A stretch of DNA of 64,000 nucleotides from Caenorhabditis elegans (lineage: Eukaryota > Nematoda > Chromadorea > Rhabditida > Rhabditidae): contig NC_003284.9 in NCBI RefSeq assembly GCF_000002985.6, positions 12,152,001 through 12,216,000 on the forward strand, written 5' to 3'. Positions within the stretch are counted from its first letter, which is position 1, and each line of letters begins with the position of its first letter. Made by a program: the position numbers and the translations under genes. The notes under the pieces were generated by a model that ran no database searches, had not been told where the DNA came from, and saw only the letters and a list, made by a program, of their open reading frames with translations. Positions 1 through 44,534 of the stretch are shown in pieces.

Positions 1-2079
1 TAGACCAAAGAATACTCCAGCTGAAAAATGGTTGTTTTGTAAAATTTTTGTGGTTGTAAAAAAATACCTGCGATTTGTCCAAACCCAGTACAAATTGCGT
101 TAAGAGCCAAAAGAGCGTTCGTGTTATTACCCAGCTGTTTGGTAAATGAAATGCAAGTTGGGTAGATTGCTATAACAAGAAAGTTCTCAAGTGAAAGAAA
201 AACATATGTTGGATTTTTATATTTAAATGGGATTCGTAACAAGGAAATTATATTATACATTTTCTTATTTTTCAATACATAGTTTGACCTTTTTTCAAAT
301 TTTAAGTTTTGAAGTAATTGTTGAATTTGCAACAGACATAAGACTTTCAGCCAAGCAAGGTTCAAATTTTGATGTGCTAACTTTTGGCAAGAATTACGAA
401 GCGTTACAAAATTGCTATGGAATTTTGGAGGACAGTAAAAATTACAGAAATAATCAAGTCGTTTCTCATTCACTCAAAATTTTATATGAAAACTTCTCGA
501 ACGTTTTCTTAATTCAAAAGATCTACTACGAACCTAAACGTCACTTTAAATGTTCTCAGCTTCTATTCCATTCTCACCTGTCCAAAAAGATTGCTCAATT
601 CCGGTGTACGCAAAAACAAATGCGAGAAGGATCATTTTCTTGGTTAACATCAACTTGAAGGTTGAAGCAACCAACTTTCCATAATTTTTTCGATCGACTA
701 CCGCAGGGTAAGACGGAGCACGGAGCAATGCAAAGATCACAGTAGAAATGAGGGACAAAACAGTGAAAACGGAGTAGAGAATGTTGATCTGAAAAGTTTT
801 TCATTTTATCAAACACGGATTGCACTAAATATTGAGCATCTGAGTTTCAAGAACATTCAAATGTAAACGAAGACTATTTCAATTAAGTAACCACCAGAAT
901 TAAAACTTTCAAACGGTAACTTTTTATTTATAACAACTTAACAATGTCTTACCCAAGTTTTCCCCATCCTAGTTTTCCGCCTAACTTTGGCCAACTTTAG
1001 GTTTTCTCCAAGTTATATCGAACTTAAAAATAATAATAAAATGTTCTACCCAAAATCTTACTAACTTTTTTTTTAAATTTTAATGATTTGTTTAAAAATT
1101 TAGAAAGAAATTGAAGGTTTTGAGTCAATTTTTATAGCAGGTTTTGACTCAATTTTTTAATTTGATGACTAACCGTAGAAGAAGGTATCTGATCTTGAGC
1201 TCCCTGCACAGTGAAAACAATGAATAGAAAAATACCACCACCCAAAAGTGAACTTTCAGACATTGCCCATAGCATTGAGCTATTTCGACTTGTTGTTTCC
1301 TTGGTGCAATTTTGAGACAAGTATGATCCTTGCCCAGTCCAAATAACTGAAAAATTATGTTTTAGTAAAGAAGACAAATGAAAAGGTCATACTAGATGCT
1401 CCAAATCCAAGAAGTGCACTGCTGGCATAGAGATACCATTCATTGAGGAATAGGAACCCAACCTGGAAATGATTTAAAAAATTAAAGTAGATTCAGTAGT
1501 AGTGAGGGACTGTTGTGCAACGATACAGTATGTTTTTGAACATCATAAACTTGTGAAGTTGGGTGGAAGTGTTTAAAAAACGTCAAACTTATTCGAATGT
1601 ATTTATCTTAACATCGTACATTTGTAACATTTCAACTTATATTGATACACGGTATTGGTGTAGGATAAATTTTGGAAGAAAACTTATGTTTTGTTTTTAT
1701 AATTTTTTTTCCAAATTAATAAATTAAATACTATAATGCTACTTAAATTGAACATTGATGTAGGCATCTAATCGAATCAATTTTATCTTTCCTTGTTTCA
1801 CACCTGGAAAATTGTATAGCAACATGATCCAAACACCATAGCCCATTTTGGAGTCAAAATATCCACAATCGGCGCGGCGGCAAAATTGGCAACCGTAAAA
1901 ACGGCGTAGATAATTGCCAAGCTGTAGTACCCGGCATGTTTGTTTATGCTTCCACTATCCGCTGCACTATCAATGACTGCCTCTTCAATAAATCCTTGTG
2001 AGTTGAACGCAAAAAATGTCGCAAAAAATCCGAACCCGAGCTGGATGACATTTAGCGTTGGGTTATCAAGCAGAGGCAT
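1..2079 (-). CDS. UNC-93-like membrane protein, 5' part of gene (runs off left edge)
   Basis: Multi-pass membrane protein of the UNC-93/MFSD11-like branch of the major facilitator superfamily. The founder UNC-93 regulates a muscle two-pore potassium channel; other members are poorly understood transporters. I read six exons: 2079-1804, 1462-1393, 1346-1174, 788-578, 169-68 and 20 to beyond base 1. All junctions keep the frame and give 284 codons in the window. Family hallmarks are an N-terminal GFGFFATFFAFNSQ helix, the WTGQGSYL segment in exon 3, a hydrophobic LLGGGIFLFIVFTV helix, and SFWTAIYPTCISFTKQLG spanning exons 4-5. The ATG at 2079 follows an ATATTCAG acceptor by 8 bases, which fits SL1 trans-splicing; an upstream cis exon is not excluded. 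The 3' end is missing. The family call is firm, but I cannot name the paralogue. Confidence 0.85.
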
Positions 2080-2086
2080 GGCTTGG

Positions 2087-2095
2087 CCTGAATAT
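2087..2095 (-). promoter_or_regulatory. Probable trans-splice acceptor of the UNC-93-like gene
   Basis: On the minus strand an ATATTCAG acceptor ends at base 2088, leaving an 8-base leader (2087-2080) before the ATG. No in-frame coding exon is evident just upstream, so a spliced-leader acceptor is the simplest reading. Confidence 0.5.
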
Positions 2096-4446
2096 GAATT
2101 GTTGTGGAGGGAAAATTACAAGGAGTCAGTAAAATTGAATATAGTTTGAGTTTGTTTTACAGAGTGAAAATCAAAAAAAGGCGAGGTGGACTATGTGGAA
2201 GTCGAGTAGTTAGGCATGTGGTGATAAGAAAAACTGTTGCAATTATATGGGCATTATGACTGCCAGACAGTAAAACAAAGGCATTAATAATGACCAAAAT
2301 CGGATTATTAAGAAAAATGGACAAAAGTTCGGTTGGAAAGCGGGGCGGAAGGTGCGCATAATTCATGTTGTCTCTTTGACAGGGGGTCGTCACACTATTC
2401 TAAAAAGATATTTCAAGTAGATAAGAAGACGTGAATATGGAAGGTGAACGGGAACAGGTAAAATGTAGGTATTTGAGGGGACGAACAACATTGGAGACCT
2501 TCAGGAAACAAGAAATAGAGTTGTAACTTTCACGTTTGATTGATTTGAATTTCCTCATGCAGGAACAATGTGTTTGTTGTGACGATTAGATGACACGAAA
2601 AACAGTCAACATTGCTTAATCCATGTTTGATGGTCAAGTGTTGGCAGAGCACACTTTTATCATTGGCCAAGTTGGAAAGACCAATTTGAGTGCGATGGGC
2701 GTAATGTTATCTTATCAATTTTGTTCTGACCCATACGAAAGACATTATAGGCTAGTGAGTGGTAAGGGAAGGTGGGTCAAACATTGTTATAGAGCTTCTA
2801 GTTTTTTTTTTGCAGGTAGGGACTAAGAAAATAGTCATATAATTAGAACTTGTTCTGGGTAAATTATTTTGAAACGAATTCAGCGTTCATAATCATCATG
2901 GCTGTGAAATGATTAGGTCTACATGTTTTTTTTTAAATAAAAAACTTTTAGATTCATAAGATTTGATAAAATATACCAAAAATCAGGCGAACTGTTACGA
3001 CTAATATATCTATTGCAATTCAAGAATTATTTTTAAGCACTTTTGAGTGTTGCTCTTTGAAATAAAATAAATTGTTTGAAATGCAATTTTGAGTAGTGTA
3101 AACATTATCCTGAACTGTTGGAAATTTTCATTAGAAATTGATAAAATTATTTACTATGAGAATTATGGAAACTTCTGAATTATTTGAAACTTGTCAAAGA
3201 ACATTATTTTATATATTTTTTTTCTTAATTTTAGTGTCTTAAATTACTTTGTTTCCAAAATGCACAAACTTGTTGGGCGTCCAAGTAAAATTCAATTTTT
3301 TGGCAGTACAAAAAATGATTCAAAAATGTATACAATGCTGATTTAAAAAAAATCAAACAATCTTGCTTTTCAGTGATGGAATACATACATTCGCATTCTT
3401 ATATAAACCGTTTTTGGTATTCAATGAACCGGGAAAAACAACATCAATATGCTAATAGTCTTTGTTCTTCCAGATTTCGGGTGCAAACAATTCAGCTCAT
3501 GTGGATGGTTTTACAGCAAGGCACGATTGAATATGCAAACTTGTGTTGGATCATGGATCATCTCACATGCATGATAGCATAAAAAGAGAGATTAAAAAAA
3601 CAAGCAACAGGTTTTTCAGAAAACATATGATAATTGCTCCAGGTTTGAACTACAAACCGATCAACAAAAATGATTACAGGAATGGTTCGGAAAAATTATG
3701 ATACTACTTATTTATAGCTGTTGATTGCAGGCAAAACGTTGAATTGCTAATCTGACTACACTATTCAGTATGTTCAAACAGTACAAAATAGTACAAAAGT
3801 TGGGACACAATAATGTGACAATACAGACAAAAAGTGACTGTGAAGTGTGAAGTGACACGCAACACTAAAAGTTGATATTCCGGAGAGATAAAAACTTGCA
3901 TATAACACTTTTCATCTGTATTTTTTGTTGTAAGAAATCACATTTTCTTCCTGTATATTTCAAGTATATTTCAATATCTAAAATATATGAGACACGTCTG
4001 AAACATGTTTTGAACGACATAATGAACTACCTTTACCTTTACCTTTTTAACATTTTGTTAGTTTACCGTTTTCGAAACCAATTTTTAGCTTATTGAGTTA
4101 TGGTTTTTAAACACAGCCCCACATTCACGAAAAGTCGTTTGTGCATACCTTCATGACCAGCACTGTACCCGATTATTTGATGTCATATTTACTTAATTTT
4201 TATAACCTTGAAAATATTTAATATAACCGATAAAAAATGCTCCAATAGTTGAATAATAATAAGAATGCATGTGTATAATATGATTTTTGAAAAACCCAAA
4301 TCTAAATATCGTTAATTTTCTTCATTTTTATTTAAACAAAGCGTGACAAAGCAAACAAGTTGGACTAGAGATTTTGTACTTTTTCAAAGTTCTAATCGAG
4401 AAATCTGATGAAAAATTATAAGAATAAAATTTAAAGAATGAATTAG
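2096..4446. other. Intergenic region between the UNC-93-like and zinc-finger genes
   Basis: About 2.3 kb of AT-rich sequence between two genes on the same strand. It should hold the UNC-93-like promoter. I see only short open frames with no matching splice signals. The spacing is far wider than the roughly 100-bp gaps of C. elegans operons, so the two genes are probably transcribed independently. Confidence 0.6.
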
Positions 4447-13985: not shown

Positions 13986-14219
13986 TAGGGAGTGTTTTAA
14001 CTATGTGGTGCGATCGGGTAAAAGTAAACGTGTTATGCGATAGCTGGCGTTTTAGGCTTTCAGAATCTGTAATTTGTTTCGGCAGAAGACCTCTGTGAGT
14101 CTGGAAATTTTCATCTGAAAATGTAGTACTGAAATCAGTGCATTTCCTATGGTTAACAGTGGATTTTGTCTCTGGCGCCAACAGAAGTCTCACCACAATG
14201 GTGGAAGGGTGAAATCATC

Positions 14220-14290
14220 GCTTCGGTGGTCGAGTGGTGAACGCATTCGCCTCTTGAGCAAAAGTTTGTGGGTTCGGTTCCCACACATGG
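14220..14290 (+). pseudogene. tRNA-like sequence, left arm
   Basis: A 71-base stretch with both internal RNA polymerase III promoter blocks: a Ser/Leu-type A box, GTGGTCGAGTGGT, and a B box, GGTTCGGTTCC, inside a good T arm (GTGGG/CCCAC). The anticodon region can fold with the loop CTCTTGA. The acceptor ends do not pair well and there is no proper variable arm, so this is a tRNA-derived pseudogene or SINE-like head and not a working tRNA. Confidence 0.55.
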
Positions 14291-15111
14291 TTTAAATTTT
14301 GGCCTTTTTTTATACAAAATTTTTAGAACGGGAAACAAATGTTTAAAACTGTTTTTTGAGGTTTTTACATTACTTTTTTGCTTTTTGATTGAACCACAAT
14401 TACCCTGGAAACTTTTCAGAAATTTTTATTTTTTCGAAAATTGCCACTTTTTTCTCCACCAAACCCATGAGAAAATTGGTTCCAAAAATTTTTTTTGAAA
14501 TTTTTTCAAAAATGTATGAAATATTGTAGAGTGTCACAAATAACTTAAACACTTTCTTGTAAAAAATTTGGTTGCCAAGATATAGACCTTTAACTATTTA
14601 GAAAATTCAAAAATAATGAAGCTCAAATCAATTGGTTCCAACTCGGCAACCAAATTTTTTACAAGAAAGTGTTTTACTGAAAAGTTTTAGATCACATTAT
14701 TTTCAACAAGTTTCTAGTTGATCACTTTTTAGTGCGATTTTTTTCTGCGGAGATATGGAGTCTTAAAGACAAGGTGTTTTGCCAATATCGATTTGGTAAA
14801 ACGTCTTGATACGGCATCAGAATAAGTGATTCGGTCATTGAAAACAATGAAAAATAAGTTATTTGTGACACTCTACAATATTTCATACATTTTTGAAAAA
14901 ATTTCAAAAAAAATTTTTGGAACCAATTTTCTCATGGGTTTGGTGGAGAAAAAAGTGGCAATTTTCGAAAAAATAAAAATTTCTGAAAAGTTTCCAGGGT
15001 AATTGTGGTTCAATCAAAAAGCAAAAAAGTAATGTAAAAACCTCTAAAAACTGTTTTAAACATTTGTTTCCCGTTCTAAAAGTTTTGTATAAAAAAAGGC
15101 CAAAATTTAAA

Positions 15112-15182
15112 CCATGTGTGGGAACCGAACCCACTAACTTCTGCTCAAGAGGCGAACGCGTTCACCACTCGACCACCGAAGC
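15112..15182 (-). pseudogene. tRNA-like sequence, right arm
   Basis: Mirror copy of the left-arm tRNA-like sequence, with the same A and B boxes. It differs from its partner at a few sites, for example GCGTTCGCC against GCATTCGCC, and GCAGAAG against GCAAAAG. Transcription would run towards the loop in both copies. It is as defective in the acceptor stem as its partner. Confidence 0.55.
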
Positions 15183-15416
15183 GATGATTTCGCCCTTCCA
15201 CCATTGTGGTGAGACTTCTGTTGGCGCCAGAGACAAAATCCACTGTTAACCATAGGAAATGCACTGATTTCAGTACTACATTTTCAGATGAAAATTTCCA
15301 GACTCACAGAGGTCTTCTGCCGAAACAAATTACAGATTCTGAAAGCCTAAAACGCCAGCTATCGCATAACACGTTTAGGGAGTGTTTTAACTATGTGGTG
15401 CGATCGGGTAAAAGTA

Positions 15417-18492: not shown

Positions 18493-19665
18493 TCAGAAGA
18501 TTCTGGAGAATGGTCCCTTCTTCATGTACTTCTCTACAAAGCTGCTGCTTGGCTTAGTCTTCTTTGGGGCAAAGAGGCTAGCGATCTCCTTGGTGATCTC
18601 ATCGCTGAGTGGAGCTGGCAAAAAAGTTGAATTTTCTTTGCACTCCTCGGCGAGCTCAATTGAGTTATCCGAAGTGAATCCAAGAGTGTCATGAATTTCT
18701 TCCTCCTTGATGTCTTCCGGCGCAATTTGCTCTTCCTCGTCGAGCTCTGGGAGTTGCTCGAAATATGGCCAGAACTCGTAATGACGCTCTTTGCGTGGTC
18801 TCTGACGCTCGGTTGGATAATCGATGATCACCTGGCGTGTGAAAGGCATTCCTTGTTGCTCATACCTGAAATTATTCAATTAGTTAATTAGGGTCATGTT
18901 TGATTGAAAATAAAATTAAAAATCTTAGATCACGCTATGATAATTAGTTATTTTTTTCAAGTTTTCAAATTCCAGTTATGTTTTTATCATGCCTACAATT
19001 TATTTCAACTTTGTTCTAGAATTGAAAAATATTAGAGCGTGGGAGAAAAGTCAACTTTCAATCTCCTTCTATTCTCAATTCCTTGTGAAGATACAATTAT
19101 TGAACAAATATTTCTTGCGCTCAGCTACTAATATGTATTCTGAGAGCGAAAAGTACGAAGAGGCCGCCTTTTCCCTTTTCTTTTCAAAATTGTAGCAAGT
19201 CTACGTGCATGAAGTGGGAAAATATTGAAAAGAAAGGAAGGACCACTTTGTTTAGTCCGTGCGAACATTATTGAACTATTATTGAATTTTTGGACAATCA
19301 TTGAAAATTTTAATAAGAACTCACTCCATCTGGAATTTTTGGGTCTTCAAGATCAAATTGTTGAGATGTACGTCGCGGAGCAGACTGACAGCGATGCGGC
19401 GTTTTGGCAAGTGCCTTGGCTCACGATTCTTAATTGTAGACAGTGGCACCGGTACAGTAGTCTCCGTCATCAGGCAGTCCACCGCTCGTTGTATAACTGA
19501 CCAGCTTTTATGGTAACCCGTTGGTCCGCTCATTAAAACATCTTGTTGTACTTCTTTCTTCACCTGGGTTGGTACACGTTTGCGTAGAATTCGCTTCCTT
19601 GCTCCTCCATTTTCAATATTGTTGTTGGTTAATATGGTTTCCCCGTTATTCTGAACTGCGCTCAT
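18493..19665 (-). CDS. Charged protein of unknown function, 237 aa, two exons
   Basis: I do not recognise the family. Exon 1 is 19665-19325 with a strong GTGAGT donor. Exon 2 is 18865-18493 after an AATAATTTCAG acceptor. Together they give 714 bases, in frame, ending in TGA. The N-terminal half is basic: RKRILRKR at 23-30 and RHLPKRR at 84-90 look like nuclear localisation signals. The C-terminal half holds an aromatic patch (YEFWPYF, about 143-149), then an acidic stretch (about 154-173) with a SUMO-type IKEE at 166-169, and it ends in a basic tail (EKYMKKGPFSRIF). There is no signal peptide or membrane segment. The start lies 16 bases past a TATTTACAG acceptor. A nuclear role is an inference from composition only. 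The exon structure is well supported. Confidence 0.75.
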
Positions 19666-19690
19666 TGTTGAAGCAAATCACCTGTAAATA
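19666..19690 (-). promoter_or_regulatory. Probable trans-splice acceptor and leader of gene 3
   Basis: The minus-strand acceptor TATTTACAG ends at 19682, and a 16-base leader (19681-19666) precedes the ATG. It was chosen because no coding exon is seen upstream. Confidence 0.5.
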
Positions 19691-37823: not shown

Positions 37824-38279
37824 TACCGTATTTCCCCTTTTAGTAAGTCATGCAAAACTAATTTTCGGACACCTAATTTGATGCAAAACTAATGGAGGTG
37901 CAAAACTAATAGAGGGTGCAAAACTAATTTTCGAACATTTTTTTCTCATGTTTTCCATTAAGTTATGACATAATATCATCAATTTCAATAACAACTTATG
38001 AACCAAAATGGACGAATTTTACGATGCATACGCAAAAATTGCCCGAGTTGTACTCCTATTTTGCCTATTTTGACTTGTTATACCAAGTCTGTAAGAGTTT
38101 TCCTAATTTTTAGAACGATTTTATAATGCAAATTTTGAATTTCTAAACATAGGGAACAAATGATGGGGTGCAAAACTATTAGAGGTGCAAAACTAATAGA
38201 GGGTGCAAAACTAATTTTCGATTAGTGATTTTAGATGCAAAACTAATAGAGGTGCCTAATTAATAGAGGAAATACGGTA
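37824..38279. mobile_element. 456-bp non-autonomous element with terminal inverted repeats and internal units
   Basis: It begins TACCGTATTTCCCCTTTTA and ends in the near-complement of TACCGTATTTCCTCTATTA (17 of 19 bases alike). Both ends carry TA, as in Tc/mariner-type insertions. Internally, copies of GTGCAAAACTAATAGAGG and GTGCAAAACTAATTTTCG are clustered near both ends (about 37850-37940 and 38165-38270) around an AT-rich centre. No open frame. A decayed relative of the internal units lies in each arm of the giant palindrome. Confidence 0.75.
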
Positions 38280-38992
38280 AGTGTGAGCCAACAAGGTTCA
38301 ATTATTAATGCAAACTTTTCCACTGAAACATTTTTACAGATGGTTCGAAAATTATGTTCTAGTAAAAGCGCCAAAGGAATTCCCTTTTTCAAAAAAATAA
38401 AAACACAATTCTAGAAAAGGTAAACACAAAATTCTATTTCTGACTGGTTCCGAATGGTTAATCTCTGAACTTTGAAATAATAGTTATGATGTCACACGAA
38501 ACAGTAATGAACAAAATGACAATATTTACATAGGTATAATCTAAGGAATAAAATTCAACTGTTTAAGATTTACTCCAAAATATTGTTGAGAATGACGTAT
38601 AACATAAAAATGATTCTGAAATCTAAAGTTTTAGGGTCAGTTTTAATCATGATATTGAAAATTTTAAAGATTTGCAATTTTACAATTAAATTTTTTTAAA
38701 ACTTTCAATAATCTATTCTGATAGGATGAAAAGTTACAGTACAACTTTAGAAAACATACAAATGTAAATTTTTCAATACAAAAATTTTTTGTTAAATTGC
38801 TCTATTTTAGTTAAAGTTTTAACAAGTACAACAAATTTTCTGCACCTATGGAAGTTGTACAAGAATATTCTACTTTAGACATCTTGGAATTGCTCATAAA
38901 ATGAAAACTTTCACTAGTTGCAAGTTAAAAATTGTCTGTTGTTTCACATCTTTTGGTATTTTTACCAGTTATCATTTTACAACAAATCAAAC
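38280..38992. other. AT-rich spacer before the giant palindrome
   Basis: No gene or repeat recognised. Confidence 0.5.
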
Positions 38993-39523
38993 GATCGTAG
39001 TTTACGAAAAAAAACTGTTTCAAGCTATTTTGTAATACTCTTTTTTGATTTTTTAAGATTAAAATTACTTTAAAAAGAATTACGTATAAATTATGTCACA
39101 AATTAATCAAGTATGTTTCATACAATTTGAGTGCCGTGACACTTTTATTGCCATCAAAATCCTTTTTATTGAAAATAACTCTTTGTATTAATCCGTTCTA
39201 CAGTAGTCATAAAGAGTTTGTTTTTGAGCGGAGTATCCGACCTAATTGTTTTTTTTTTCAATAAATCTTGAATGTAAGAAGTTATGTATTTTTGCTTTTG
39301 CAACAACCTTCACTTTGAAGAGAACTGAAATTTTTAAACATTTTTTTACAGTTTTACTGTCGTATTTAGTTACATTATCATTATAGAAGTCAACCAATTT
39401 CAAAGTCTACACTAAAACTTCGGTTTTTTTTTCATGAAAATCTGTTTCATCGGTATATAGTAATGGTTTTGTGCTTCACTGTTAATCCAATTTTGATGTT
39501 AAGTTTAATCTCAAAAGAAGTGC

Positions 39524-39595
39524 AAAGATCAGTAACAAAATAGGTGTTGACTAAAGATAAATATTCCGATTATTGCCTTGATAACCGTTTTGCGG
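39524..39595 (-). repeat. 72-bp motif, copy in left arm (inverted)
   Basis: Mirror of the motif at 43602-43673; it is homologous to the motif in both copies of the 334-bp direct repeat. Confidence 0.6.
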
Positions 39596-40540
39596 GTTCT
39601 ATCGCGACATATTCCTGTTTGCCAATCGTCTATCGCCGGCGCTCTCACTCCACACAGACTGTTACATATTTATCATATTATTGTTTGTCGTTGGATCATT
39701 ATCTTCAATACAAGACAGCAGACAGTTCGGTGCGCGGAGAGCATTGATGACAATGACGTGTGCTTATTTTTCTTTATTTTCCTCATTTCTCTCGATTGTC
39801 TCAACTGAAAAACTGTGCGGAGGTGACCGGGCACGCAGCGGGGGATGAGACGGAAGAATAGAAGAGACGGGAGGGGAGAAGAAATACAGCCGGGAGAGGG
39901 TCATTCGAGGTTAAGATGACGCTATTTACATTGCCTGGTGACAGCAAGAAGCCCATCTGGCAGGTCAACTTTTTATGAGAGAGGGAAGAGAGAACACCCG
40001 GCAGTGATAATTCATGATGTCATATGGGACCAATTCATGGTTCAAGAGGTTTTTTTTTATGAGAGGGGGAGGAAGGGTTACAAATTAGGATGAGCACTGA
40101 GGCTTTTTCTGGGGATCTACCTAAGCATCTGAAACAAAACGTTTTATCAGTGGAAAAATTACAATATCCGGTAGGTTTCTCCTAAAATTGCAACATTATT
40201 TTTGAAAAATAATTGAAAATTAAAATTTTTTAATGAAATGCGTTTCACTCTGGATTTTTTCCAAAAAACACTTTGGACAGGGAAATTCCAAAACCTGGAA
40301 ACTCGAATTTTTTACCATTCAAACATATTGCAATTTCTTAGTACATACCAGCTATCTTCCTTCTTTAAATTCTCTAATTTTTATTGAAACTTTTTAGTTT
40401 TTGAATTTTTAAATACATTCTTTAATTTTTTTTCTAAATTCAAAGTTTGAATGTGAATATGGAAGCATATGTATCTTAGAGTTTCGATCGGCATGAAATA
40501 ATGATTATGGCAAAGAACAGATTTTTTTCCAACGCTATTC

Positions 40541-40640
40541 GAAAATTAATCCTGCATCTCCTAATAGTTTTGCAGTCATTATTAATCTTGCACTCCTACA
40601 AACTGTTTGAAAATTAGTCTTCCATATCAAATTTAGGTAC
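40541..40640 (-). repeat. Decayed fragment related to the 37824-38279 element, left arm
   Basis: Reads GAAAATTAATCCTGCATC, then CTAATAGTTTTGCA and GAAAATTAGTCTTCC. These are degenerate versions, in reverse orientation, of the GTGCAAAACTAATAGAGG and GCAAAACTAATTTTCG units of the 37824-38279 element. Confidence 0.55.
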
Positions 40641-42556
40641 TTGTGTAGTGTTCCTGCCTCTAGAAATTATAATTTGATCAAGAAATTTAGAAATTATAAT
40701 TCAATCAAATAGTGTAATTTTTTATTTATTTTCAGGCTTAATTAAATTATAATTTTAAAAATATATCTTTGTTCTTTAAACTTTCAGAATCTAACAAATT
40801 ATTACCAATTATTTGTTAATACTGTCAATAAATCAACATCATCTTTAAAACTCAATTGATCGCTTGACGATCGCTTCAACATCAGTTGTTTTTTACAGTC
40901 TGTCATCATTCTTATCATGTTCTGCTATCTTTCTGACGTTAAGCTCCAAGTAGTTTCACCGAAGTAATTTTACACTCTAACATCCACCGATAGGCCAATA
41001 TTTTGAGGGGAAATGAGATTTGGTGGATTGATAGGTGGTGAAGGGAGAAGTTGCCGAAATCTTTTCTGATGATAATGGGATTGGCTATAGTGAAAAGTCG
41101 ATTAAGTGGACGATTGATTGCTTACTGGATTGGGCACACAGATTGCACATTTAAGTTTGGAAACTACTCGGGGATCTGTTGATATGTAGTCAAAGTTGTA
41201 GCCTAGCATTCAGTAAAAGATCACTTCAAAAGTTGATAGTCGCTATTTGTAACGATGAGTTTTGAGTTTTGATTTTGTAACACACAGTTGTCAAAGTTCA
41301 TCCTCCTTGTAATCTGATCTCACATAGCTTTTATCCACAGATTACAACATTTACGACTGCAACTTGTCATTAACACACTAGCTATACTGTGGTGTGAAAC
41401 TTGCAGTTGCTTCCTAAAAAACATATGAAGCAAACCACGAAGAGGGGCTGAAAAAATTGTAAGGTTTGCTGAGAAACACACAAAAGTCAAATTCTTATTG
41501 GCATGATTAAGTTTTTGGAAAAGATTCTTTTGGGAAGAGGCATAGTTTTGTAATTCTCACTTCACAAGTAACAATGTAAGTCAAAACTTAGACCAAAACT
41601 AAACATTTTGGTTTTCGGCATTTCGGTTAAAGCATTTCTGTTATATTAGTTTTTGAATTCAAAGTTCATTTAATGTCACCAAAAACTTAATCATGCCAAT
41701 AAGAATTTGACTTTTGTGTGTTTCTCAGCAAACCTTACAATTTTTTCAGCCCCTCTTCGTGGTTTGCTTCATATGTTTTTTAGGAAGCAACTGCAAGTTT
41801 CACACCACAGTATAGCTAGTGTGTTAATGACAAGTTGCAGTCGTAAATGTTGTAATCTGTGGATAAAAGCTATGTGAGATCAGATTACAAGGAGGATGAA
41901 CTTTGACAACTGTGTGTTACAAAATCAAAACTCAAAACTCATCGTTACAAATAGCGACTATCAACTTTTGAAGTGATCTTTTACTGAATGCTAGGCTACA
42001 ACTTTGACTACATATCAACAGATCCCCGAGTAGTTTCCAAACTTAAATGTGCAATCTGTGTGCCCAATCCAGTAAGCAATCAATCGTCCACTTAATCGAC
42101 TTTTCACTATAGCCAATCCCATTATCATCAGAAAAGATTTCGGCAACTTCTCCCTTCACCACCTATCAATCCACCAAATCTCATTTCCCCTCAAAATATT
42201 GGCCTATCGGTGGATGTTAGAGTGTAAAATTACTTCGGTGAAACTACTTGGAGCTTAACGTCAGAAAGATAGCAGAACATGATAAGAATGATGACAGACT
42301 GTAAAAAACAACTGATGTTGAAGCGATCGTCAAGCGATCAATTGAGTTTTAAAGATGATGTTGATTTATTGACAGTATTAACAAATAATTGGTAATAATT
42401 TGTTAGATTCTGAAAGTTTAAAGAACAAAGATATATTTTTAAAATTATAATTTAATTAAGCCTGAAAATAAATAAAAAATTACACTATTTGATTGAATTA
42501 TAATTTCTAAATTTCTTGATCAAATTATAATTTCTAGAGGCAGGAACACTACACAA

Positions 42557-42656
42557 GTACCTAAATTTGATATGGAAGACTAATTTTCAAACAGTTTGTA
42601 GGAGTGCAAGATTAATAATGACTGCAAAACTATTAGGAGATGCAGGATTAATTTTC
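42557..42656 (+). repeat. Decayed fragment related to the 37824-38279 element, right arm
   Basis: Mirror image of the left-arm fragment, in the same orientation as the intact element. It was carried along by the inverted duplication and did not insert separately. Confidence 0.55.
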
Positions 42657-43601
42657 GAATAGCGTTGGAAAAAAATCTGTTCTTTGCCATAATCATTATT
42701 TCATGCCGATCGAAACTCTAAGATACATATGCTTCCATATTCACATTCAAACTTTGAATTTAGAAAAAAAATTAAAGAATGTATTTAAAAATTCAAAAAC
42801 TAAAAAGTTTCAATAAAAATTAGAGAATTTAAAGAAGGAAGATAGCTGGTATGTACTAAGAAATTGCAATATGTTTGAATGGTAAAAAATTCGAGTTTCC
42901 AGGTTTTGGAATTTCCCTGTCCAAAGTGTTTTTTGGAAAAAATCCAGAGTGAAACGCATTTCATTAAAAAATTTTAATTTTCAATTATTTTTCAAAAATA
43001 ATGTTGCAATTTTAGGAGAAACCTACCGGATATTGTAATTTTTCCACTGATAAAACGTTTTGTTTCAGATGCTTAGGTAGATCCCCAGAAAAAGCCTCAG
43101 TGCTCATCCTAATTTGTAACCCTTCCTCCCCCTCTCATAAAAAAAAACCTCTTGAACCATGAATTGGTCCCATATGACATCATGAATTATCACTGCCGGG
43201 TGTTCTCTCTTCCCTCTCTCATAAAAAGTTGACCTGCCAGATGGGCTTCTTGCTGTCACCAGGCAATGTAAATAGCGTCATCTTAACCTCGAATGACCCT
43301 CTCCCGGCTGTATTTCTTCTCCCCTCCCGTCTCTTCTATTCTTCCGTCTCATCCCCCGCTGCGTGCCCGGTCACCTCCGCACAGTTTTTCAGTTGAGACA
43401 ATCGAGAGAAATGAGGAAAATAAAGAAAAATAAGCACACGTCATTGTCATCAATGCTCTCCGCGCACCGAACTGTCTGCTGTCTTGTATTGAAGATAATG
43501 ATCCAACGACAAACAATAATATGATAAATATGTAACAGTCTGTGTGGAGTGAGAGCGCCGGCGATAGACGATTGGCAAACAGGAATATGTCGCGATAGAA
43601 C

Positions 43602-43673
43602 CCGCAAAACGGTTATCAAGGCAATAATCGGAATATTTATCTTTAGTCAACACCTATTTTGTTACTGATCTTT
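43602..43673 (+). repeat. 72-bp motif, copy in right arm
   Basis: CCGCAAAACGGTTATCAA, then TTTATCTTTAGTCAACAC and TTTGTTACTGATCTTT. It aligns with 44393-44464 and 47313-47384 with a few substitutions and small gaps. Confidence 0.6.
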
Positions 43674-44200
43674 GCACTTCTTTTGAGATTAAACTTAACA
43701 TCAAAATTGGATTAACAGTGAAGCACAAAACCATTACTATATACCGATGAAACAGATTTTCATGAAAAAAAAACCGAAGTTTTAGTGTAGACTTTGAAAT
43801 TGGTTGACTTCTATAATGATAATGTAACTAAATACGACAGTAAAACTGTAAAAAAATGTTTAAAAATTTCAGTTCTCTTCAAAGTGAAGGTTGTTGCAAA
43901 AGCAAAAATACATAACTTCTTACATTCAAGATTTATTGAAAAAAAAAACAATTAGGTCGGATACTCCGCTCAAAAACAAACTCTTTATGACTACTGTAGA
44001 ACGGATTAATACAAAGAGTTATTTTCAATAAAAAGGATTTTGATGGCAATAAAAGTGTCACGGCACTCAAATTGTATGAAACATACTTGATTAATTTGTG
44101 ACATAATTTATACGTAATTCTTTTTAAAGTAATTTTAATCTTAAAAAATCAAAAAAGAGTATTACAAAATAGCTTGAAACAGTTTTTTTTCGTAAACTAC

Positions 44201-44534
44201 GATCATAATTTTTATTCATGTTTCCAAATGTATACTTTTTATATAACATTTTAGTGTTTCAGAGTTACACAATTTTTTAATATTTCAATATTTCACAATA
44301 AAAAAATTAGTTACAAAGAGGTACAAAATTATCTGCATTCCAGCAAATTGGTCCCTAGCAATGCTAATCGGGTTATAAGTGATCTCAATTTTCCGCCAAA
44401 CCGTTGTCAATATAGAATTCGCTGTTTATCTTAGACCCACTCATATTTCGTTACTGATCTTTTCCACATTGTTGGTGGGTGATTCACAGCTCAGATGAAG
44501 ATTGTATGCAAATAATTGAAGTAAAAAAATAAAA
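44201..44534 (+). repeat. 334-bp direct repeat, copy 1
   Basis: Identical to 47121-47454 (offset 2,920) by line-by-line comparison. It starts GATCATAATTTTTATTCATG and ends in an AAATAAAA stretch. Its first four bases, GATC, are also the last four of the giant palindrome. No coding capacity, and no TG...CA ends as an LTR would have. Confidence 0.95.

Follow-up and report, generated by a model that had tools for sequence, protein, structure and literature searches.

A stretch of 64,000 nucleotides of the Caenorhabditis elegans genome (C6:12152001-12216000, hereafter the window; contig C6 is presumably the X chromosome of strain N2) contains an interrupted palindrome, which we propose to be, more probably than by any other route considered here, a young inverted duplication, its arms being identical for lack of time to mutate. 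The palindrome is real in the reference sequence and ordinary in kind; its perfect identity, its sharp edges and its apparent freedom from genes set it somewhat apart. Its recency, the mechanism of its formation and its lack of function are what we infer from the observations below. In window coordinates, its parts are:

38993..41518, plus strand: left arm, 2,526 nt, 33.5% GC, delimited by base-by-base comparison
41519..41678, no strand assigned: spacer (loop), 160 nt, 29.4% GC, halves not detectably complementary
41679..44204, minus strand: right arm, 2,526 nt, exact reverse complement of the left arm

A perfect palindrome with abrupt edges

The base-by-base comparison of the arms gave no mismatches and no insertions or deletions over 2,526 positions, in agreement with an independent repeat search, and the homopolymer runs of 6-10, 17 in each arm, are all identical between the arms. 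An earlier note on this DNA had given the coordinates, the 2,526-bp arms and the 160-bp loop exactly as found here and had called the structure near-perfect, which understates it; the note also held that many arm mismatches, revealed by such an alignment, would indicate an old repeat, and there are none. Long interrupted palindromes are those with arms longer than 1 kb that are more than 95% identical and separated by a short spacer, and the present one, at 2,526 nt, 100% and 160 nt, is a clear member of the class. A chance origin of such an arm pair is impossible.

The similarity of the arms ends abruptly at the edges of the palindrome. The likeness score of the outer 150 nt beyond the arms is reached by 130 of 300 shuffles, and that of the two spacer halves by 71 of 300, i.e., neither pair of sequences is more alike than shuffled ones. 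Within 264 kb of contiguous sequence (the window plus 100 kb on each side, surveyed by megablast with 20-base words for spacers below 20 kb), no other inverted repeat has arms above 1 kb, the runner-up inverted pairs at 98% identity or more measuring 523 nt (98.7%) and 200 nt (98.0%). Long, nearly identical inverted repeats have been described as very rare in C. elegans, several being documented (PMC1803023; this and other papers given by PMC number are cited here for the parts consulted). A literature search by title and abstract did not find this palindrome named, and it may already be listed by LeBlanc et al. (2000), who catalogued chromosomes III and X.

Comparison with the heat-shock inverted repeats

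As controls, two inverted repeats of the same genome were fetched via HSP20 and HSP70 family searches. Their gene names were assigned by gene content and spacer size, the lengths of their spacers, 414 and 126 nt, agree with those published (PMC1803023), and the arm limits of the palindrome were taken from the same aligner:

C2:11757079-11761884: hsp-70 inverted repeat (F44E5.4/F44E5.5), arms 2,340 nt, spacer 126 nt, 99.6% identical, 10 differences
C5:9086851-9091046: hsp-16 inverted repeat, arms 1,891 nt, spacer 414 nt, 1 difference

The hsp-70 repeat is nearly equal to the palindrome in size, spacing and identity, but it holds a divergent HSP70 gene pair whereas the arms of the palindrome look noncoding and are undecayed; its structure has also been reported in C. 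briggsae and C. remanei (PMC1803023). The hsp-16 repeat, first described by Russnak and Candido in 1985 (cited in PMC1803023 and PMC3966223) and also reported in C. remanei, contains four HSP20 matches and is thus coding, unlike the palindrome. Both repeats have been reported to be ancient, in a study that puts forward gene conversion as a mechanism and suggests that the structure is under selection (PMC1803023). Zhao et al. (2007) described inverted repeats whose arms carry or separate a pair of paralogous genes; the palindrome, with no convincing coding segment in its arms, is not one of this kind.

In both controls, every arm difference falls in the terminal 70 nt of an arm, namely 10 of 10 in hsp-70 (positions 13, 58, 68, 2278, 2320, 2322, 2323, 2327, 2328 and 2333) and the sole difference of hsp-16 (arm position 10), and the interiors are identical, which is the pattern that conversion failing near the arm ends should leave. 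The repeat search rounds both control pairs to 100% identity and places the arm limits of hsp-70 slightly differently; the counts given here do not come from that search. Against these 11 end differences, the palindrome has none at its arm ends or anywhere else. In the outer 150 nt, the observed likeness is reached by 267 of 300 shuffles for hsp-16 and by 218 of 300 for hsp-70; for the spacer halves, the respective counts are 88 of 300 and 0 of 300, the latter indicating residual complementarity. Edge decay is therefore apparent in the hsp-70 repeat but not in the palindrome, and the comparison favours a recent origin without deciding the question.

Several points weigh against this interpretation. 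The hsp-16 repeat, published as ancient, is nearly as clean as the palindrome, with one difference in 1,891 nt and abrupt edges, so that perfect identity and abrupt edges can also come from conversion. The argument from the edges thus depends mainly on hsp-70, to which 10 of the 11 differences belong. Finally, the coincidence of the outer edges with GATC, considered below, has no explanation under a recent duplication.

Formation and age of the proposed young inverted duplication

Under the hypothesis of a young duplication, about 2.5 kb of apparently noncoding intergenic DNA, otherwise single-copy, would have gained one inverted copy at a distance of 160 bp. The copy was probably made at a break, by fold-back priming or template switching, and then sealed by end joining. 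The anatomy would fit a fold-back whose loop measured 160 nt, with a microhomology-free join at the far end; neither of the two insertion models tested shows microhomology where the new junctions lie. Published routes to interrupted palindromes include fold-back priming at breaks as well as template switching between short inverted repeats (PMC10622511, PMC10766186). Moreover, newborn duplicates in C. elegans are often adjacent and inverted, with a median duplication span of 1.4 kb (PMC2728529), and the palindrome is likewise adjacent, inverted, short in span and at zero divergence, although the young inverted duplicates of that study are genes and the palindrome is apparently intergenic.

For wild-type substitutions and small indels, a rate of 2.52e-9 mutations per site per generation has been reported (Konrad 2019, quoted in PMC8727991). 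At this rate, the chance of no change in 5,052 sites drops to one half at ~54,000 generations and to 5% at ~236,000, so that, provided there was no conversion, the lack of arm differences would place the age of the arms under ~240,000 generations (< ~2.4e5 at 95%); any conversion voids this bound.

From the sequence of the arms and flanks, the original arm cannot be told from the copy. One possible clue, a 72-bp stretch of the right arm (43602-43673) that resembles part of the right flank (44393-44462), was dropped: when the flank was resampled 300 times under a first-order Markov model, 3 resamplings scored as high, and the flank stretch was not among the matches when 43590-43690 was searched against the genome (E up to 0.001).

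Most likely, the palindrome is selectively near-neutral. The earlier note had proposed that such arms are either very recent or kept alike by conversion, which is the right pair of options, and the missing differences, those at the ends included, lean towards the first without settling the choice.

Possible maintenance of an older palindrome by gene conversion

The second option, an older palindrome with arms kept identical by arm-to-arm gene conversion, appears to be the main competitor of a young duplication, although a clearly less probable one. Conversion of this kind has been proposed for the heat-shock repeats of C. elegans and shown in the palindromes of primate Y chromosomes (PMC1803023, PMC3403216). 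The latter are interrupted and have near-identical arms, as here, and conversion in them was demonstrated by human-chimpanzee comparison (PMC3403216). The reported ancient age of the hsp-70 and hsp-16 repeats, which reside in the same genome and are very similar to the palindrome in size and spacer, speaks for the same process. The primate Y palindromes differ from the present one in being much larger and gene-bearing. The GC content of the arms (33.5%) exceeds that of the spacer (29.4%) and of the 2-kb flanks (30.0% and 28.9%), which might be a weak hint of conversion, but a GC-richer block at ~39.6-40.1 kb, located by eye, explains the excess equally well; as a sign of biased conversion, the excess was discarded as too weak.

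On the other side of the balance, the decayed zone seen in hsp-70 is absent at every edge of the palindrome. The arms contain no gene pair, as far as the frame list and the usage scan can find one, whose function would favour upkeep of the structure. In addition, a survey quoted in PMC3966223 suggests that conversion in worms is likelier between paralogs in the same orientation. We regard as doubtful the more specific proposal that the palindrome is old and gene-free and is kept base-perfect to the arm ends by conversion, with the structure itself being used, either to supply a 2.5-kb hairpin RNA or to act as a cruciform element; if true, this would be a case of structure maintenance without coding selection.

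Copy number and genomic setting

A search of the C. elegans genome (100,286,401 bases in 7 contigs) with the arm returned two full-length matches, i.e., the two arms themselves. There are also at least 42 partial matches, all inside arm positions 1539-1638 and mostly at 75-83% identity, a count that is a lower bound given that the search scored the best 40 of 41 candidates and skipped very common words. These partial matches define one further feature:

40537..40625, plus strand: dispersed repeat, 89-nt core, mirrored in the right arm at 42572-42660

The rest of the arm is unique DNA as far as the genome search reaches, not a multicopy element. At least two copies of this arm-internal repeat family lie just left of the palindrome, at window positions 37850-38270, and at four other genome sites the copies are paired, ~240-310 bp apart. 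A dispersed fold-back element occupies window positions 14025-15377 (a 523-nt inverted pair, 98.7% identical, with a 307-nt spacer) and has at least 149 matches across contigs C1 to C6, many of them above 90% identity. Near the window, at C6:12227136-12227441, there is a 306-bp self-complementary block (86%) that resembles a miniature inverted-repeat transposable element (MITE).

The nearest genes are predicted ones. The usage scan, together with reading of the sequence, suggests a minus-strand gene with exons from ~53.5 to 48.3 kb, the coding part of which ends at ~48.32 kb, and the scan suggests a second minus-strand gene with exons at ~19.7-18.5 kb. The nearer of the two ends, with its 3' end, ~4.1 kb from the palindrome, and the next accepted exon starts ~19 kb away, so that the palindrome sits inside roughly 28 kb that lack an acceptable exon. 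The scan relied on background codon figures, and the acceptance of exons is soft: one that was accepted (19324-19674) had a score of only 17.4, while several unaccepted segments inside the 28 kb scored as high or higher, among them those at 30.8-31.2 kb (22.3) and 33.9-34.5 kb (22.8). Given this softness, a long intron or a noncoding transcript may extend over the palindrome. The coding-like segments at 18.5-19.7 kb and 48.3-53.5 kb, both on the minus strand and one on either side, appear by eye to be unrelated. Ten of the 92 listed frames, chosen by eye and none of them in the arms, were compared with Pfam; the single match to pass the cut-off was that of an exon-like frame at window positions 1798-2112 on the minus strand to the UNC-93 family (PF05978, E 8e-20).

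Coding capacity and the hairpin-RNA hypothesis

Each arm contains two stop-to-stop frames of at least 80 aa, which overlap and measure 85 and 87 aa. The coding-usage scan reports one segment per arm with a score of 10.5; many apparently noncoding stretches score alike, and the top four segments score 28-48. A coding palindrome was rejected on the short overlapping frames and on a usage score in the noncoding range, and we consider the arms, judging by their sequence, to be apparently noncoding and intergenic, with no convincing coding sequence. In the Rfam search, no match reached the gathering score anywhere in the window, and none was found at E up to 1 in 38800-44400. The CTGTTTCA octamer, which we take to be the upstream motif of 21U-RNA genes, occurs twice in each arm, at 39015 and 39442 on the plus strand and at 43748 and 44175 on the minus strand; the total in the 264 kb, both strands counted, is 22 including these four, possibly a matter of chance.

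This content bears on another potential explanation, namely that the palindrome is a functional hairpin-RNA locus, in which a loop-crossing transcript would fold into ~2.5 kb of double-stranded RNA, a substrate for editing by ADR-2 or for cleavage by Dicer into small interfering RNAs (siRNAs). The arms are indeed perfectly complementary, and worm transcripts that contain inverted repeats are known to give rise to double-stranded RNA and to adenosine-to-inosine editing (PMC4282642). However, the frames, the usage scan and Rfam revealed no coding segment or RNA family crossing the palindrome, and the nearest predicted gene and the next accepted exon lie ~4.1 kb and ~19 kb away. The ERI-6/7 siRNA pathway is reported to target recently duplicated genes, at which the authors detected no terminal inverted repeats (PMC3213143); those targets are genes and the arms apparently are not. 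The proposal in the earlier note of double-stranded RNA, ADAR editing and siRNA production is physically possible, but finds no support here, with arms that look noncoding and intergenic. These sequence tests amount to a lack of support rather than a disproof, and we consider the hypothesis improbable.

Possible cloning artefact and rejected transposon origin

The least probable of the explanations weighed here is an artefact of cloning or assembly in a clone-based reference, which we consider very unlikely. It is brought to mind by the following feature:

38993..38996, with a mirror copy at 44201..44204, no strand assigned: GATC at the outer edges, the arms starting and ending exactly on it

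We take GATC to be the Sau3AI site used for worm cosmid libraries. It occurs in the window at a frequency of 0.0027 per base (171 in 64,000), and the copy at the left edge is the sole one from ~490 nt outside to 500 nt inside the arm; the outer edges of hsp-16 and hsp-70 have no GATC. The caution about misassembly in the earlier note was thus a fair one. The inner edges, however, carry no GATC, so that a single mis-ligation cannot make the palindrome, and an artefact of this kind would have all its novel junctions at a cloning site, which is not the case. Furthermore, the coincidence was spotted after the fact, and other data have long served to verify the reference. The GATC at the edges is probably a coincidence, with a small risk of artefact left. 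As for a transposon of the fold-back or MITE type, it is ruled out by the copy number (two full matches) and by the absence of a target-site duplication at the outer edges, where the left flank ends in ...ATCAAAC and the right flank begins with ATAATTT...

Implications

The palindrome adds to the interrupted palindromes that C. elegans was already known to hold. Nothing that we observed shows it doing anything, and on its sequence it would appear to lack a function. The comparison of arm edges suggests a simple genome-wide way to tell young palindromes from maintained ones, two controls being too few to validate it. If the palindrome is old, conversion can keep worm palindromes identical with no gene to select for. 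If it is young, as we propose, it would be a clean natural site, perfect, apparently noncoding, present in two copies and abrupt-edged, where a comparison of wild isolates could trace early decay, deletion or conversion.

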